DNA from: Bacteroidaceae bacterium | GTDB lineage: Bacteria > Bacteroidota > Bacteroidia > Bacteroidales > Bacteroidaceae | NCBI GenBank assembly: GCA_017938245.1 | Contig: JAGBBX010000045.1 | Span: forward strand, 44,418 to 108,417 | Direction of reading: 5' to 3' | DNA length: 64,000 nt | Shown: piece by piece, positions 32,786-60,390 of the stretch | How positions within the stretch are numbered: position 1 is the stretch's first letter | Layout of the letters: each line of letters begins with the position of its first letter | Position numbers and translations under genes: made by a program | Notes under the pieces: model-generated | What the model was told of the DNA's origin: nothing | What the model saw: the letters and a program-made list of their open reading frames with translations, nothing else | The model's database searches: none

Positions 32786-33097
32786 AGTATATCGGTCGCA
32801 AGACCAATATAGCTACAACCGAGCAAGAAACAAAGTTTACTTTGATTTTTTACAGCGACGACGCGAATGAGCGTTGTTTGCTTGCCGCCAAAAAAGTATA
32901 TCGGTCGTTAGACAAATATAGTTACAACCGAGCGATTAGAAATAGTCGGTTAAGCGAGAGCAAAGGGAACTTGTTTAATGTGCAAACATTTCGGGCGATT
33001 AGAAATCGCCCCTACAAGCAATGAAAAGCGAGAAAATAAGCAGCTTGTCGCCAAAAAAAGTATATCGGTCGTAAGACCAATATAGCCACTCTCCGAG
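32786..33097. repeat. Second palindromic repeat family, three copies
   Basis: Three copies of a unit of about 39 nt at 32786-32824, 32895-32933 and 33059-33097. The core is TATATCGGTC, a 4-nt loop, then GACCAATATA, an imperfect 10-bp hairpin, followed by a GCTACAACCGAGC-like tail. Copies 2 and 3 are preceded by CTTGyCGCCAAAAAA. The spacing is irregular, so this is not CRISPR. Copy 3 lies within the end of the short frame at 33306. Confidence 0.8.
32943..33023 (-). repeat. REP unit joined to a diverged long-form fragment
   Basis: A complete REP in minus orientation at 32993-33015 (GGGCGATT, 3 nt, AATCGCCC, then CTAC). On its left, 32946-32975 resembles the right half of the 62-nt insert of the long REP form (TTAAGCGAGAGCAAAGGGAA against TTAAGCGAGCGCAAAGGCAA). 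It looks like a decayed composite. Confidence 0.75.
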
Positions 33098-39140: not shown

Positions 39141-40454
39141 CTACTTAAACTCTATTGTGAAACGGGTATAACCATCCTCATCGGTCTTTAGAGAGAATTT
39201 ACATCCGTGTGCAGCAAGAACCTCGCGAGTGAACATAAGACCTATGCCTTGCCCATTGCTTTTTGTCGTAAAGAAAGGCGTAAAAATCTGTTGCGCCGCA
39301 TCGCTGCCGATGCCTCGTCCATTGTCGCAGATAACGATAGTTGCAGGTTGCGCTGTTGTTGATATTATAATCTCCCCACCCTTCTCAATACTCTCTATCG
39401 AGTTTTTCACAATATTCACAAGCACCTGTTCGAAGAGAGTAACATCGATATTCACAGGAACTGAACCGTTATGCAGATTCATTGATAGCGAGATACCTTT
39501 CTCTCGACAGATACCTTCCATAAAACGCGTGCAATAACGGGCGCTGTCGTTAAGGTCGCATTGTTGCAACTGTGGTGCAGGAATTTTTACAACATCGGCA
39601 AAGCGGGTAATGAAACTGCTGAGCATAAGTCCACGCTCCTCGCACACCTGCATTGCCTCGCCAATCTCTACAGTATCATTGGCAAACGTTTCGTTTGTAC
39701 TGGTTTGCAACATATCTTTTGCAGTCTCCAGGATAGATGTTATTCCACCCATAGTGTTGTTTACCTCGTGGGCAATCATACGTATAACTTTCTCGTAGGC
39801 ATTGCGTTCGGCTTTGTGCAACTGTTCGGTAAGGCGTTCTATGAGCACAAATGGGTGAGGAAATCCTCGGTCTTGAAACGACAGACGCGAAATGCTGTAA
39901 ACCTCGATACCGCTGATTTTTATGATGCGTGTTTCGCCCTGTTTTGTCGATACAATTTCCTGCATAAGCGGTATATCGATATCGGCAATATTTCTGTCAA
40001 GACAGCTATCGTCACAGTTTAACATACCCTTTGCCGAGGGATTTATCATTGTAACCCTGTTGTCAAAATCAAGAATTATAACTCCCATCGGCGAGGCTTG
40101 TATAAGAAGGTCGAGAAAGTGATTCTGCTCTCTCAGACGCAGACGCTCATCTTTCAGCTGAGCCATCATACGGTTGAAAATATCGACAATCTTGTCGGCC
40201 TCGCGTTGTCCCACAGGCGATAGTCGGCTGCTGAAATCCTGCTCGCGCAGCAGATTAAGTCCTGTCGCTATTGTATCGAGCGGCGTTATTATTTTACGAT
40301 AGAAATAGACAAGAAAAAACATACTGAAGAGAGCTACCCCTTCGGTTGCATAAAAAAGTTTTATGCTGCACCTGTCATATACTATAACAAGCAGCACTGC
40401 CCAGGCAAGCACAAGCAGCGCCGATATGGCAACGAATATGTTTTTCTGTCTCAT
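39141..40454 (-). CDS. NtrB-type sensor histidine kinase with PAS domain
   Basis: 437 residues: two N-terminal transmembrane helices (about 7-50) with almost no periplasmic loop, a HAMP-like segment (about 55-110), a PAS domain (about 120-220), the phosphotransfer His in MIAHEVNNTMGG (about 242), then ATPase boxes NIVKNSIES, DNGRGIG and GQGIGLMFTREV. Partner of the sigma-54 activator gene 7 nt upstream. With so little outside the membrane, it probably senses within the membrane or the cytoplasm. It ends the export locus. Confidence 0.87.
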   Translation of the reverse strand: MRQKNIFVAISALLVLAWAVLLVIVYDRCSIKLFYATEGVALFSMFFLVYFYRKIITPLDTIATGLNLLREQDFSSRLSPVGQREADKIVDIFNRMMAQLKDERLRLREQNHFLDLLIQASPMGVIILDFDNRVTMINPSAKGMLNCDDSCLDRNIADIDIPLMQEIVSTKQGETRIIKISGIEVYSISRLSFQDRGFPHPFVLIERLTEQLHKAERNAYEKVIRMIAHEVNNTMGGITSILETAKDMLQTSTNETFANDTVEIGEAMQVCEERGLMLSSFITRFADVVKIPAPQLQQCDLNDSARYCTRFMEGICREKGISLSMNLHNGSVPVNIDVTLFEQVLVNIVKNSIESIEKGGEIIISTTAQPATIVICDNGRGIGSDAAQQIFTPFFTTKSNGQGIGLMFTREVLAAHGCKFSLKTDEDGYTRFTIEFK

Positions 40455-40461
40455 TATTTTT

Positions 40462-41805
40462 CTATTTTAATCCAAATTTCTCTAATCGCCGATAGAGCGC
40501 CTGACGGCTTATACCCAACGATGCTGCAACCTGCGTCATATTACCGTCATACTTTTCCATAGCCTCGATAATGCGCACACGCTCGGCCTCGTCGAGTGTC
40601 ATAGCAGTGGTTGCAACACTCTTTGGCGATGTTGGTACAATATCATTTGCCAAACGAAAATCCTCGGTGGTGAGCAGGCTCTTTCCACTCATAAGAATAG
40701 CGCGCTCGACAAGATTTTTCAGTTCGCGCACATTTCCCGGGAAAGGCTGACGCATAAGATACTCCATCGCTTCGTCGGCAACATCAATCTTTTGCAGATT
40801 ATTATTCTCTGTTGCGAGCGACGCAAAATGTCGCACAAGCAAAGGAATATCCTCGCGACGTTCGCGCAGCGGTGGCAGATGCAGAGTAATAAGATTTATT
40901 CTGTAGTATAAGTCCTCGCGGAAAGTGCGCTCGGCAACCATTTTTGTGAGGTCGGCATTTGTTGCGCACACAACGCGTATATCCACCTTGCGCGGACGGC
41001 TCTCTCCAAGCACCTCGAAAGTCTGTTCCTGCAACACACGCAACAGTTTCACCTGGCAGGCAAGGTCGAGCTCTCCAAGCTCGTCAAGAAATATTGTACC
41101 CTTGTCGGCAAGTTCGAAACGGCCCACCCTATCGGACGAAGCATCGGTAAAGGCCCCCTTCTTGTGTCCGAACATTTCGCTCTCGAAAAGAGTGTGAGAT
41201 ATTCCACCTAAATTAACCTTTACAAACGAGTTTTTTGCACGACGGCTGTTGCGATGGATTGTCTCGGCAATCAGCTCTTTTCCCGTACCGCTCTCGCCTG
41301 TGATAAGTACCGAAGCATTTGTCTTTGCAATACGTTCAATGGTTGACAGAACATCCGAAACAGCCTTGCTGCGTCCAATTATCAAGCTGCGGTCGAAACC
41401 GCCCTCTTTCTGTTGGATATTCACCGTCTCCTTGCTGTGCGAAAGGCTTAGAGCGGTCTCAATGCGTTGCATCAGCACCACATTATTCCAGGGCTTTGTA
41501 ACAAAGTCAAATGCTCCTGCACGCATTCCGCGCACAGCAAGGTCGATGCTGCCCCACGCCGTGATTAGTATCACAGGCGTATCGGGGCAGAAAATCTTTA
41601 CCTTCTGCAACAACTCAATGCCATCGTCGCCACTTGTGGTGAGCGAGAAGTTCATATCCATAAGAATAAGTTGAGGGGTTGTCGCACGCACAATCTCCAT
41701 TGCCTCGCCCGGCGAAGCAACTGCCTTAACATCGTACCGCGCACGTTTGAGCATAAGTCCCAAGCTGTGGCGTATTGCTATATCATCGTCAACTATAAGA
41801 ATCAT
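40462..41805 (-). CDS. NtrC-family sigma-54-dependent response regulator
   Basis: 447 residues: receiver domain with Asp in LILMDMNFS (about 51), AAA+ domain with Walker A GESGTGKE (about 171), the sigma-54 contact loop written GAFTDA instead of GAFTGA, Walker B GTIFLDELGELD, and a Fis-type helix-turn-helix at the end (MTQVAASLGISRQALYRRLE). The G-to-D change in the loop is found in other Bacteroidota activators as far as I recall. It is downstream of the export genes and likely drives them from the sigma-54-like promoter at 50878-50893. Its own promoter abuts the ATG. Confidence 0.9.
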   Translation of the reverse strand: MILIVDDDIAIRHSLGLMLKRARYDVKAVASPGEAMEIVRATTPQLILMDMNFSLTTSGDDGIELLQKVKIFCPDTPVILITAWGSIDLAVRGMRAGAFDFVTKPWNNVVLMQRIETALSLSHSKETVNIQQKEGGFDRSLIIGRSKAVSDVLSTIERIAKTNASVLITGESGTGKELIAETIHRNSRRAKNSFVKVNLGGISHTLFESEMFGHKKGAFTDASSDRVGRFELADKGTIFLDELGELDLACQVKLLRVLQEQTFEVLGESRPRKVDIRVVCATNADLTKMVAERTFREDLYYRINLITLHLPPLRERREDIPLLVRHFASLATENNNLQKIDVADEAMEYLMRQPFPGNVRELKNLVERAILMSGKSLLTTEDFRLANDIVPTSPKSVATTAMTLDEAERVRIIEAMEKYDGNMTQVAASLGISRQALYRRLEKFGLK

Positions 41806-46851: not shown

Positions 46852-46945
46852 GTAGGGGCGATTTGACAAAGTCCAACAGCCTTTCGCTCGGCAAAGTAAG
46901 TAAACTTGCCTTTGCGCTCGCTTAATCGGCAATTTTCAATCGCCC
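46852..46945 (+). repeat. Long-form REP inside the export operon
   Basis: GTAG at 46852-46855, GGGCGATT 46856-46863, an insert of the same kind as at 51029 and 52128, and the closing AATCGCCC at 46938-46945; 94 nt. CATTGCG precedes it. It separates the first permease pair from the ATPase gene. The right 9-nt repeat has decayed (GGCAATTTT). Confidence 0.85.
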
Positions 46946-49571: not shown

Positions 49572-50819
49572 TTATTTTAGTTTTATTCTCTCTTTTCCCG
49601 AATATTCGTGCATATCGCTCACAACAACCTCTTCACCCTCGGCAATACCCTCCTCGACCTGCACAAAATCGTAGTTGCTCACACCCAAACGCACCTTGCG
49701 TAGTTCAACCTCGCCGCTGCCGTTCTTTACGTACAATTTATATTCGCCCGGGCCGATATAGTAGCTGCGGTTGCTTATTCGCAACACATCATCGTGAATC
49801 TCGTTCATTATATATACGTCGGTGCGCAGTCCCTGACGCAGACGTGCGTGATTGCTCTCTTTCAGTGTAACGTCGAAGTTTATTATTCCGTTGTTGCTTT
49901 TGGGCGATACGTTGCTTATAACACCCTCCATCTTCTCTTTTCCCACTGCGGCAATGATGCGCTTACCAACCTTTACATATTCGGCCATTGCGTCGGAAAT
50001 TTGTGCTGTAATCTTGAAATTGCTAAGGTCGGATATTACGGCAATCCTCTCGCCTGCACTCACACGCGCACCAATCTGATTATTTATGAATGTAAGCGTG
50101 GCAACTCGTGGCGACAAGATACGCGCCTCGTCGAGTGTACGTTTCATCTCGCTCAGTTTCTTCTCGAAGATATTGTACTCCAGCTCTCTCACCCTTACAT
50201 CCGACTCCTTTATGCGTGTGTCGTTGGCATACTGTGTACGTTGCTGGCCGAGTCGCATCTGTGCTGTTGCAACGGCAAGCTCGGCCTGACGCACTCGGTC
50301 GGCTGTTCCCGAACCTATGCTATCGAGGTAACGCTCGTTTCGCAGTTCGGTTTGCAGGCGCTCAAACTCAATCTCGGCAATTGCAATGCTCATCTTCTGA
50401 TTTTCGAGCGATGTCGCATTATTCAGTCGCAACTGTGTCAACTGATGCTGTTTAATCTCCTTCTCGTCGAGCATATTTCTGTAATTATTGAGCGTATTCT
50501 CAAGGTCGAGACTAAGAAGCGGTGTTCCAATAGATACCGTATCGCCCAACTGTTTATATACCTCTAATATACGTGAGGAGATTGGAGAATTTATCACCTC
50601 CTCGAATGCAGGGTGCACCTCGCCCGATGCCGTTACACTCGTCTCGATGCTACCGCGTGTCACAGTGCAGATTTCGAGATGTTTTTCATATACACTGTCG
50701 CGAGATAAGGAGACAACGGCAACCACCGCAAGCACCACCGCTACTGCTGCGCCTGCAATCTTCAGCAGGCGCAGCGCCGTCTTTTTTCTTTGAACCTCTT
50801 TTGGAATTGTACGATCCAT
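49572..50819 (-). CDS. MacA/HlyD-type periplasmic adaptor
   Basis: 415 residues: one N-terminal membrane anchor (about 17-42), lipoyl-like half (about 60-90), alpha-helical hairpin (about 105-200), second lipoyl half and beta-barrel, and a C-terminal domain ending GKERIKLK. It joins the inner-membrane permeases to TolC. First gene of the export operon, 49 nt downstream of the predicted sigma-54-type transcript start. Confidence 0.9.
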   Translation of the reverse strand: MDRTIPKEVQRKKTALRLLKIAGAAVAVVLAVVAVVSLSRDSVYEKHLEICTVTRGSIETSVTASGEVHPAFEEVINSPISSRILEVYKQLGDTVSIGTPLLSLDLENTLNNYRNMLDEKEIKQHQLTQLRLNNATSLENQKMSIAIAEIEFERLQTELRNERYLDSIGSGTADRVRQAELAVATAQMRLGQQRTQYANDTRIKESDVRVRELEYNIFEKKLSEMKRTLDEARILSPRVATLTFINNQIGARVSAGERIAVISDLSNFKITAQISDAMAEYVKVGKRIIAAVGKEKMEGVISNVSPKSNNGIINFDVTLKESNHARLRQGLRTDVYIMNEIHDDVLRISNRSYYIGPGEYKLYVKNGSGEVELRKVRLGVSNYDFVQVEEGIAEGEEVVVSDMHEYSGKERIKLK

Positions 50820-50877: not shown

Positions 50878-50893
50878 ATCAAAAAGCGTGCCA
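50878..50893 (-). promoter_or_regulatory. Sigma-54-type promoter of the export operon
   Basis: On the minus strand TGGCAC (50893-50888), 5 nt, TTGAT (50882-50878). Consensus is TGGCAC-N5-TTGCW; only the C of the -12 GC differs, and the GG to -12 spacing of 10 nt is exact. The transcript would start near 50868. The locus encodes its own sigma-54 activator. Confidence 0.55.
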
Positions 50894-50905
50894 AAAAATT
50901 AGTTT

Positions 50906-50961
50906 GTTGATAATCAACGTCATAAATAAAATTCCGAGTGTCCGTTTTCGGACACTCGGAA
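50906..50961. promoter_or_regulatory. Palindromes upstream of the sigma-54-type promoter
   Basis: GTTGA-TAA-TCAAC at 50906-50918, and a 13-bp perfect palindrome, arms 50932-50944 and 50949-50961, loop TTTT. A further CGGACA half-site is at 50969-50974. They lie about 40-100 nt upstream of the predicted start, where sigma-54 activators bind. The large one could instead be a terminator on the minus strand, since TTTTATTTAT follows. Confidence 0.5.
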
Positions 50962-51028
50962 TAAAATCGGACAATATTTTTTTGCGGTGTGTTACGGGCT
51001 TAATATTCATTGATGAAACCCATTGCGT

Positions 51029-51379
51029 GTAGGGGCGATTTGACAAAGTCCAACAGCCTTTCGCTCGGCAAAGTAAGTAAACTTGCCTTTGCGCTCGCTT
51101 AATCGGCTATTTGTAATCGCCCGCATCATTGCTTTATCCATCACCTCGGTTTCGGACGATTGAAAATCGCCCCTACTATTTGCGGTAATCATTCATTAGC
51201 TACTCCAAATTCATTGCGTGTAGGGGCGATTTGTAATCGCCCGCATCATTGCTTTACTCATTACTTCGCGGTTGCGGGCGTGTTGCGGGCGATTGAAAAT
51301 CGCCCCTACTGTTCGCGAAATAAACACTTTGTATTCGTTGATAAAACTCATTGCGTGTAGGGGCGATTTTCAATCGCCC
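51029..51379. repeat. REP cluster downstream of the RAYT gene (five units)
   Basis: Units alternate in orientation: + long form 51029-51122, - 51154-51176, + 51220-51242, - 51287-51309, + 51357-51379. Each short unit is 23 nt: GTAG, 8-nt stem GGGCGATT, 3-nt loop, AATCGCCC. The - unit at 51154 has one stem mismatch (GGACGATT). Spacers are of two recurring kinds, CATTGCTTTAnnCAT-like and a TCATTCATTAGCTACTCC-like type. The last unit ends 28 nt from the RAYT stop codon. Confidence 0.9.
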
Positions 51380-51407
51380 GAATCATTGCATGAAAATAGA
51401 TTCGCAG

Positions 51408-51896
51408 TTAATAAAAGCAGTCACTTTCCCACGCAAGAACATTATTTGAAATATAGTCGGAAATATTATTAAGGTCATCAATTCCACGAATGAAATGGTC
51501 GTGATAACTCTTTTGCCAAGCAAATTCTATTTTTTCTTTATTTGCCAATTTTGTTATTGATGCTTTTACTCCTTTAATGTATTTCGAGAGCACATTGTCT
51601 CGCTGTGTTTCTATCGTATCACGATAAGAATCAACATCAGATACCTTCAATATTGCATGAAAGTGATTTGGCATAATTACATATTGGAGAACTTTTATAC
51701 AGGATTGATATATTGAAGCTTTCTCTAATTCCGATGATAAATATATGCCCAATGAGGATAGAAATATCTCGCCATTATTTATCTCTCCGAAATAATGCTG
51801 TTTGTTGCGTGTACAAACTGTTATGAAATACATACCTTCGTTGTAATCTAACCATTTTGCTCGCAATGGCTTACGTTGTGGTAAGTTGTTTTCCAT
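51408..51896 (-). CDS. REP-associated tyrosine transposase (RAYT, Y1/HUH family)
   Basis: 162-residue single-strand DNA transposase-like protein of the IS200/IS605-related RAYT group. The HUH motif is HFH at residues 78-80 in VIMPNHFHAIL; the candidate catalytic Tyr is Tyr148 in DYISNN, preceded by the WQKSYHDHFIR segment typical of TnpA-REP. No inverted ends, no TnpB and no second transposase are present; instead REP units flank the gene on both sides (nearest at 51357-51379 and 51936-51958, both with GTAG on the outer side). That fits a domesticated REP-mobilising or REP-binding enzyme. Confidence 0.92.
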   Translation of the reverse strand: MENNLPQRKPLRAKWLDYNEGMYFITVCTRNKQHYFGEINNGEIFLSSLGIYLSSELEKASIYQSCIKVLQYVIMPNHFHAILKVSDVDSYRDTIETQRDNVLSKYIKGVKASITKLANKEKIEFAWQKSYHDHFIRGIDDLNNISDYISNNVLAWESDCFY

Positions 51897-51935
51897 AATT
51901 AATTTGTTTAGTTACTTTTAAATATTGCGTGTTGC

Positions 51936-52323
51936 GGGCGATTGGAAATCGCCCCTACTGTTCGCGAAATATAAACGCTTAATATTCATCGATATAATTC
52001 ATTGCGTGTAGGGGCGATTTGTAATCGCCCGAACCATTGCTTTACCCATCACCTCGGTTGCGGGCGATTGAAAATCGCCCCTACTATTTGTGCTAATCAT
52101 TCATTAGCTACTCCAAACTCATTGCGTGTAGGGGCGATTTGACAAAGTCCAACAGCCTTTCGCTCGGCAAAGTAAGTAAACTTGCCTTTGCGCTCGCTTA
52201 ATCGGCGATTTGTAATCGCCCGAATCATTGCTTTACCCATCATCTCGGTTTCGGGCGATTGGAAATCGCCCCTACTGTTCGCGGTAATCATTCATTAGCT
52301 ACTCCAAATTCATTGCGTGTAGG
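51936..52323. repeat. REP cluster upstream of the RAYT gene (five units and a half unit)
   Basis: Alternating units: - 51936-51958, + 52008-52030, - 52062-52084, + long form 52128-52221, - 52253-52275, and a broken + unit at 52319-52323 that loses the match after GTAGGGC, next to the asparaginase gene. The long form has perfect 9-nt direct repeats GGCGATTTG at 52133-52141 and 52204-52212 around a 62-nt insert. Confidence 0.9.
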
Positions 52324-52362
52324 GCGGAAATAAGGAACACAATCCTTATCGTGTGTATAACA

Positions 52363-53406
52363 TCAATTACAGGTAATCTCCCCTGCAAGGTCTTTCTTCA
52401 TAAGCTTGCGCACATCTTCGACGGGTAATTCCTGACCAAGCAGGAACATCATCTTTGTGAGAGCCGCCTCGACCGTCATATCGCGACCGCTGATTATACC
52501 GGCCTCTAACAGTTGTAATCCGGTCTCGTAAAGACGCATCTTTACGCTGCCTGTGCTGCATTGGGTAATGTTTACTATCACCTTGCCCTGACGGGTTGCA
52601 TTTGTAAGCGCCTCGACGAGCCACTGAGCCTGCGGCGCATTTCCCGCTCCGAATGTGCGGAAGATTATTCCTTTAAGTTCTTTCCCCGAGAGAATTTTTT
52701 CTACGATATTTGGCTGTATTCCCGGAAAAAGGGAGAAAATAATAATGTCGCTCGACATCTTGTATTTAGGTGTCAGTTTCACCTGTGCATCGTATGGTTT
52801 TATTATGTGTCGATTATACTGAATCTCCATTCCTGCCGTTGCCAGATAGGGGCAGTTGGGCGAATTGAATGCATTAAAGCTATCGGCACTTGTCTTTGTG
52901 CAACGGTTGCCACGCATAAGTTTCTGATGGAAATATATGCACACCTCGGGAACAACGGGTGTACCATCGTCGTTCTTTGCCGCTGCCATCTCAATGGCCG
53001 CAAGAAGATTCTCCTTGCCATCGGTGCGCAGAACACCAATAGGCAACTGACTACCGGTGAGAATAACGGGCTTCATAAGTCCTTCGAGCATAAAACTAAG
53101 GGCCGATGCTGTAAAAGCCATTGTATCGGTTCCATGCAGAATTACAAAGCCGTCGAACTTATCATAGTTGGTGTGTATCATCTCAACTATTCTGCTCCAC
53201 AGCGAGGGATTCATATCCGACGAGTCTATGGGAGGATTAAAGGCACGTGACGAGATATTCAGATTGAACTGACGAAGCTCGGGAACGTGACGCAACAGAT
53301 GGTCGAAGTTAAACGACTCCAATGCTCCGGTAACCGAGTTACGTATCATACCTATGGTACCACCGGTATATATAATAAGAATAGATGCCCTTTTTTCGTT
53401 GCTCAT
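52363..53406 (-). CDS. ansA: Type I L-asparaginase
   Basis: Hydrolyses asparagine to aspartate and ammonia in the cytoplasm. 347 residues without a signal peptide. Catalytic threonines: Thr in IYTGGTIGM near residue 15 and Thr in LHGTDTMAF near residue 90, with the Lys in GKEN further on. The C-terminal domain is full length. The REP cluster ends about 40 nt after its stop. A -7-like TAATTTTG is at 53436-53429. Confidence 0.94.
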   Translation of the reverse strand: MSNEKRASILIIYTGGTIGMIRNSVTGALESFNFDHLLRHVPELRQFNLNISSRAFNPPIDSSDMNPSLWSRIVEMIHTNYDKFDGFVILHGTDTMAFTASALSFMLEGLMKPVILTGSQLPIGVLRTDGKENLLAAIEMAAAKNDDGTPVVPEVCIYFHQKLMRGNRCTKTSADSFNAFNSPNCPYLATAGMEIQYNRHIIKPYDAQVKLTPKYKMSSDIIIFSLFPGIQPNIVEKILSGKELKGIIFRTFGAGNAPQAQWLVEALTNATRQGKVIVNITQCSTGSVKMRLYETGLQLLEAGIISGRDMTVEAALTKMMFLLGQELPVEDVRKLMKKDLAGEITCN

Positions 53407-60093: not shown

Positions 60094-60390
60094 GGGCGAT
60101 TGAAAATCGCCCCTACACGCAATGAGTTTTATCGATGAATATTAAGCGTTTATTTCGCGAACAGTAGGGGTGATTCCTAATCGCCCGCAACACGTCAGCA
60201 ACCGCGAAGTAATGAGTAAAGCTATGATTCGGGCGATTTTCAATCGCCCCTACACGCAATGAATTATATCGATGAATATTAAACGTTTATTTCGCGAATA
60301 GTAGGGGCGATTTCTAATCGCCCGCAACACGCCCGCAACCGCGAAGTAATGAGTAAAGCTATGATTCGGGCGATTGAAAATCGCCCCTAC
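60094..60390. repeat. REP cluster between the barrel gene and the GDPD-like gene
   Basis: Five units, alternating: - 60094-60116, + 60164-60186, - 60231-60253, + 60301-60323, - 60368-60390. The + unit at 60164 has one stem mismatch (GGGTGATT). The spacer and unit pair repeats as a block of about 137 nt, so a two-REP module has been duplicated in tandem. A partial spacer copy runs on to about 60440. Confidence 0.9.

Follow-up and report, generated by a model that had tools for sequence, protein, structure and literature searches.

The 64,000-nt stretch of DNA analysed here (the window) very probably carries a REPtron, that is, a RAYT (TnpA-REP) gene, closest to subclass 2.4 / group 4, together with the population of REP repeats that it serves. 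We describe the anatomy of the locus, the number of repeats genome-wide, the predicted fold and conserved positions of the protein, the lineage-specific pairing of gene and repeat, and the REP sites that differ between relatives. A sequence-only reading had proposed a REP/RAYT module at this place, and a GTAG-tagged repeat present throughout the genome, its BIME/REPIN layout and the one RAYT gene found bear this out. The source draft genome (G000) comprises 2.70 Mb in 63 contigs and is 86% complete; contamination is 6 to 7% in this draft and in that of the sister species, G015.

The gene (51408-51896, minus strand, 162 aa), annotated as an HUH Y1 single-strand nuclease, lies in the middle of a REP array. 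In 51029-52323 the pattern GGGCGATT-NNN-AATCGCCC was found as ten hairpins at <=2 mismatches, five on each side of the gene, and at <=3 mismatches it had 17 matches in the whole window, against 0.24 expected from shuffles. Ten REP units, five per side, had been read here before. The ten hairpins stand, but those at 51104 and 52203 each close a composite unit, the GTAG-tagged arm of which is at 51029 and 52128, respectively, and an additional truncated unit brings the array to 11 GTAG tags (eight plain units, two composite, one truncated). To the left of the gene lie a composite REP with a GTAG-tagged 5' arm, an insert of ~64 nt and a degenerate second hairpin (51029-51122, +), and plain units at 51154-51176 (-, hairpin with one mismatch plus CTAC), 51220-51242 (+, GTAG plus hairpin), 51287-51309 (-) and, adjoining the gene, 51357-51379 (+). 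To its right follow the other adjoining unit (51936-51958, -), plain units at 52008-52030 (+) and 52062-52084 (-), a composite REP with the same insert (52128-52221, +), a plain unit at 52253-52275 (-) and the truncated unit, GTAG and the start of an arm (52319-52326, +). Read from the side of the GTAG, the orientations run +,-,+,-,+,(gene),-,+,-,+,-,+; the alternation reported earlier thus holds across all 11 units, and the two units adjoining the gene both point GTAG away from it, again as had been noted. The units at 52008-52030 and 52062-52084 pair as a 77-nt REPIN with tags outward, which folds as a single hairpin (-26.7 kcal/mol, z -8.6; single REP unit, -8.6, z -6.0). The whole gene is bracketed by a pair of 210-nt direct repeats (51016-51225 and 52115-52324, both +) that are 96% identical, and the hairpin search of the window found no REP inside the gene. 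A promoter/terminator scan detected no clear RAYT promoter (three promoter-like sites, 5.4 in shuffles), and an Rfam search of the window returned only one tRNA.

Elsewhere in the window the family is represented by a unit at 32993-33015 (-), a third composite REP at 46852-46945 (+, hairpin match at 46927) and an array of five alternating REPs at 60094-60390 that is absent from the sister G015. A 64-nt stretch is identical in the three composites (46852-46945, 51029-51122 and 52128-52221), all on one contig, and G015 has one composite. At <=3 mismatches, G000 has three occurrences of the 40-nt core of the insert, none of them outside the window, and G015 has a single one. Other fetched stretches hold weaker relatives of the insert that are 78 to 97% identical over 32 to 48 nt. 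Since the core is limited to 2 of 101 genomes, we rejected, on this evidence, the idea that the insert is a separate widespread mobile element.

The ORF carries NHFH at residues 77-80, WQ at 127-128 and Y148..N152, in agreement with the earlier description of a 162-residue Y1 transposase-like gene with an HUH motif. It matched the NCBIfam model NF047646 (REP-associated tyrosine transposase, REP_Tyr_transpos) at E 1.4e-18 and 67.2 bits, under the curated cut-off of 80, and Pfam Y1_Tnp at E 6e-4 and 20.3 bits, under the cut-off of 23. Of 14 control genomes, six also match the NCBIfam model at E 0.001, one of them above the cut-off, so that the model is not RAYT-specific at that level; in the genus, scores passed the cut-off in just 2 of 44 genomes. 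A further RAYT type of the genus, above the NCBIfam cut-off and outside our tree, was seen in G004 (C79, 69099-69560) and G018 (C1, 1527-1991).

A single-sequence search of solved structures gave nothing relevant. The profile of a 36-row alignment (the window protein and 35 named loci) matched PDB 4er8, the E. coli TnpA-REP, at E 1.2e-10. An AlphaFold model of the window protein (pLDDT 87.3, pTM 0.81) also found 4er8 first in a fold search (E 7e-7, TM 0.59, 19% identity in the fold alignment), with IS608 TnpA a close second (E 1.3e-6) and ISDra2 TnpA also among the runners-up. N77, H78, H80, Q128, R137, Y148 and N152 were invariant across the 36 rows, so that the alignment, with the fold matches to 4er8 and IS608 TnpA, gives an HUH motif and a single catalytic tyrosine in a Y1 fold. 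The E. coli residues that contact GTAG are W94, Q95, E100, H101 and R104 in the available text of PMC6006769; W127, Q128, D133 (E to D), H134 and R137 of the window protein align with them, as WQ....DH..R. Proteins were extracted from 62 of 110 RAYT loci (24 of the 30 in L031-L060, 38 of the 80 in L065-L144), and 60 were left after L080 and L135 were dropped; WQ....[DE][HR]..R was present in 46 of these and NHxH in 57. Judged by alignment and modelled fold, the window gene is a RAYT/TnpA-REP gene.

The Y1 fold is common to RAYTs and to IS200/IS605 transposases, and IS608 TnpA is the second fold match, which would suit an IS200/IS605 insertion sequence of the ordinary sort, whose ends form hairpins. 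We consider this extremely unlikely: the profile matches are of RAYT type, 4er8 came first in the fold search, one gene match stands against 167 repeat matches, and other sites have hairpins without the gene. Such an element should be present as several copies that each bear the gene and share their ends, and one match was found in the 86% complete G000.

These 167 matches (83+84) are to GTAG-GGGCGATT-NNN-AATCGCCC at <=1 mismatch in G000, a count in which a unit tagged on both sides enters twice; the reversed-pattern control gave 0. This threshold was used because a symmetric hairpin with three mismatches can match from both sides, and the count at <=3 mismatches (157+158) was set aside for such double counting. 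The sequence-only reading had made its case depend on the repeat occurring elsewhere in the genome, where it is indeed abundant. No second RAYT gene was found in G000 (one match in the 86% complete draft). The genome thus combines a single-copy gene with a multi-copy, intergenic GT[AG]G hairpin repeat, as RAYT systems do.

The arrangement of the repeats was surveyed in 21 stretches (197 kb), namely the window and 20 others chosen for carrying the repeat. They held 110 hairpins at <=3 mismatches; the tag lay to the left in 53, to the right in 48 and on both sides in one, and eight had none. Among 61 neighbouring tagged pairs less than 400 nt apart, 47 were inverted (28 -+ and 19 +-, with 9 ++ and 5 --). 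Spacing was 69-86 nt in 24 of the 28 -+ pairs, while the +- pairs were more spread, with 9 of 19 at 48-63 nt. The +- pair with tags outward is the usual REPIN form. Inverted REP pairs at regular spacing, a feature of REPINs and BIMEs, are therefore present in the surveyed stretches of G000. Only 7 of the 110 hairpins fell inside ORFs of >=120 aa, against 91 expected from 83% coverage, although these ORF calls were mechanical and crude. REPs lie within ~300 bases of a contig end on G000 C6, C7, C13, C15, C17, C22, C23, C34 and C38 and on G015 C133 and C257, and they seem to break the assembly.

Both neighbouring genes lay within the stretch for 26 of 36 REP clusters, which divided into 16 tandem, 10 convergent and 0 divergent gaps. 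The lack of clusters in divergent gaps among those classified would fit a role at the 3' ends of genes, with REPs that now persist as RNA hairpins or terminators and owe their spread to recombination, the RAYT being a bystander or a relic. The sister G015, which keeps REPs without a RAYT match, also speaks for this. We regard this explanation as quite unlikely, because the ORF is intact with all catalytic residues present, REP and RAYT lineages are paired, and some REP sites are present in one sister only. A RAYT serving its REPs remains our preferred reading.

The pairing was followed through 101 genomes of relatives, of which 28 have RAYT relatives; within the genus the family model matches 8 of 44. 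The window REP was found in 2 of these 44 genomes, G000 and its sister G015 (24+31 = 55 matches at <=1 mismatch), and in the same two among the 101. The link between repeat and transposase that had been claimed holds to the extent that 42 of 43 other genomes of the genus lack the repeat at <=1 mismatch, but G015 has its 55 matches and yielded no RAYT match by protein or family model (86% complete, ~380 contigs). It is an exception that argues against a strict RAYT-REP link.

Six congeners with another RAYT lineage have none of the window REP, and five of the six carry another GTAG repeat. A repeated hairpin of the GTAG-GGGCGGGG type lies near the RAYTs of G004, G011 and G026. In the genus this type has 39 matches in G004, 23 in G019 and 3 to 5 each in G011, G026 and G035, and 0 in G000 and G015. 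In G036, which has a RAYT of the other lineage, there is no GGGCGGGG-type REP, and other GTAG hairpins lie near the gene. Among the 14 congeners carrying the GGGCGGGG-type REP, nine have no RAYT match, with 1 to 8 REP matches each. The nearest relatives of the window RAYT have REPs of their own type (174 matches in G060 and 54, 19 and 6 in the genomes of L068, L067 and L065) with 0 in G000. As far as can be read from these sequences, RAYT and REP change together, lineage by lineage.

A search that presumed GT[AG]G gave repeated hairpins at 75 of 110 RAYT loci, an upper bound since the tag was presumed and single sites tagged on both sides were counted as repeated. When no tag was presumed, a repeated hairpin lay <=1 kb from the RAYT at 29 of 59 loci (L047, 110 aa, was left out). 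Of 21 distinct stems, 16 were preceded most often by GTAG on the 5' side and five by another tetranucleotide. Repeated hairpins of any kind turned up in two of 55 distant control stretches, in one case with a GTAG tag. REPs also occur inside RAYT genes at recurring positions (L065 ~5296, L067 ~5237/5308, L076 ~5117/5310, L081 ~5114/5307, L039 ~1783), and in L067, L076 and L081 they form an inverted pair inside the gene.

In a tree of 58 rows, from which L047 (110 aa) and L045 (no HUH) were left out, the window protein grouped with L065-L068 and G060 (support 99/93). L065-L068 come from Bacteroidales, Paludibacteraceae and Bacteroidaceae MAGs and are its nearest RAYT relatives. The six congeneric RAYTs form a separate clade (support 100/98), and the position of the window RAYT apart from them would reflect either horizontal arrival or old paralogy.

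The array lies between an HlyD-like gene (49572-50819) and an asparaginase gene (52363-53406). In G034 these genes are ~175 nt apart with no repeat between them (asparaginase gene, 81% DNA identity). In G015 (87-88%) the distance is ~380 nt and takes in a single composite REP as well as a second unit that is cut off, and the same gap in G000 holds eleven units and the RAYT. The asparaginase gene was matched in 38 of 44 genomes; among the 30 loci listed, the HlyD neighbour adjoins it only in G015 and G034, where it should be noted that the HlyD gene of G000 lies beyond the fetched flank and that several loci stop near a contig end. As the array is absent at the G034 locus, it most likely arose after the split from G034. 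If the DNA between the flanking direct repeats were deleted, roughly the state seen in G015 would remain, and loss of the RAYT by this route is perhaps the simplest account of the sister, the alternative being a gain in G000 alone.

The empty site in G034 and the tree, which places the RAYT with other genera and not with the six congeneric RAYTs, could also be explained by a mobile unit, in which a REPIN with outward tags holds the RAYT in its spacer and the gene with its bracketing REPs moves as an autonomous element. Consistent with this, the units at 51357(+) and 51936(-) enclose the gene, and on both sides of it the spacer ends found in the 52008-52084 REPIN, CATTGC and TTGCGGGC, are preserved. 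However, one gene copy was found in the genome, and the direct repeats offer a simpler route for gain or loss, so we hold such a unit to be rather unlikely. The same degree of doubt attaches to a fuller version of events, in which an autonomous REPIN with its own transposase arrived horizontally, seeded the REPs and was then lost from the sister while the REPs persisted.

Other sites differ as well. REPs present in G000 are missing from G015 at 60094-60386 of the window, at ~12.5 kb on C8 (a pair) and at ~16.7-17.1 kb on C31 (five hairpins); other REP sites are common to G000 and G015, several of them at contig ends. The borders of the insertions are not exactly readable, as the sequence beside the differing sites has diverged. 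Recent activity had been suggested before, and the comparison of sites between related species agrees with it: because REP sites differ between G000, G015 and G034, a recent spread in this lineage is supported.

Upstream of the HlyD/ABC export genes we observed a palindrome, GTGTCCG-NNNN-CGGACAC, at 50938-50955 (within 50880-50962). G015 and G034 retain it, and the changes in its outer stem are paired. It has one exact match in the window; 1.3 matches are expected at <=3 mismatches, so that the count alone is uninformative. Beside it, on the minus strand, is a TGGCAC-N5-TTG stretch that resembles a sigma-54 promoter. The gene series of the same strand includes a response regulator of NtrC type (40462-41805) along with a sensor kinase (39141-40454), both named from sequence, and the palindrome may be a site of this NtrC-like regulator.

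The pairing described here is textbook in kind; it is the known RAYT-REP partnership and not a new kind of system. The sequence-only reading had hinted that the GTAG grammar is new to this phylum, which does not hold, as the available text of Quentin 2018 (PMC6006769) already names Cyanobacteria and Bacteroidetes as phyla rich in TnpA-REP of subclass 2.4. The same portion places GT[AG]G REPs near a large majority of subclass 2.2, 2.4, 2.5, 2.7 and 2.8 genes, includes RAYT group 4 in subclass 2.4 and describes in-gene REPs for that subclass. In the accessible part of De Nocera 2013 (PMC3733652), GTAG repeats are reported from Proteobacteria, Cyanobacteria, Chloroflexi and the PVC group, with only CGTC repeats from Bacteroidetes, and none of five Bacteroidetes taxon terms occurs in PMC2817692. 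The window RAYT resembles subclass 2.4 in its NHFH, WQ and YIxNN motifs and in the GTAG-tagged REPs near the gene. Against the signature NH[IFV]H, WQ, YIxNNP it has YISNNV, a V for P that recurs in the tree neighbours L032, L034 and L065-L068. It differs in having no internal REP, whereas its relatives L065-L067 have one between HUH and W. With the E. coli TnpA-REP (group 2 / subclass 2.2, 4er8) it shares the fold, HUH and Y, the GTAG-contact W/Q/[ED]/H/R and the alternating REP layout, but identity in the fold alignment is low, and the REPs of subclass 2.2 mostly have longer stems with bulges in the available text of PMC6006769. The REPtron Sm of Stenotrophomonas maltophilia, in the part of PMC8266576 available, has REPs of the same 23-nt build, an 8-bp perfect stem closing a 3-nt loop and GTAG immediately in front of it, although its protein belongs to another group (group 3) and the likeness is one of geometry. 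That part describes biochemical tests for RAYT groups 2 and 3.

Most probably the protein binds REP DNA in single-stranded form, recognising GTAG as a guide together with the 8-bp, GC-rich hairpin, and cuts beside the hairpin through tyrosine Y148. REP pairs (REPINs, tags outward) would then be moved or copied into intergenic DNA, presumably while that DNA is in single strands, as on the lagging strand, where replication may play a part.

The genus thus offers a natural series at one gap, from no REP through REPs without a detected RAYT to REPs with a RAYT, and holds two RAYT lineages with different GTAG repeats. The origin of a REP family, the loss of a RAYT with its REPs persisting, and the specificity for REPs therefore become directly testable in a subclass 2.4-like RAYT.
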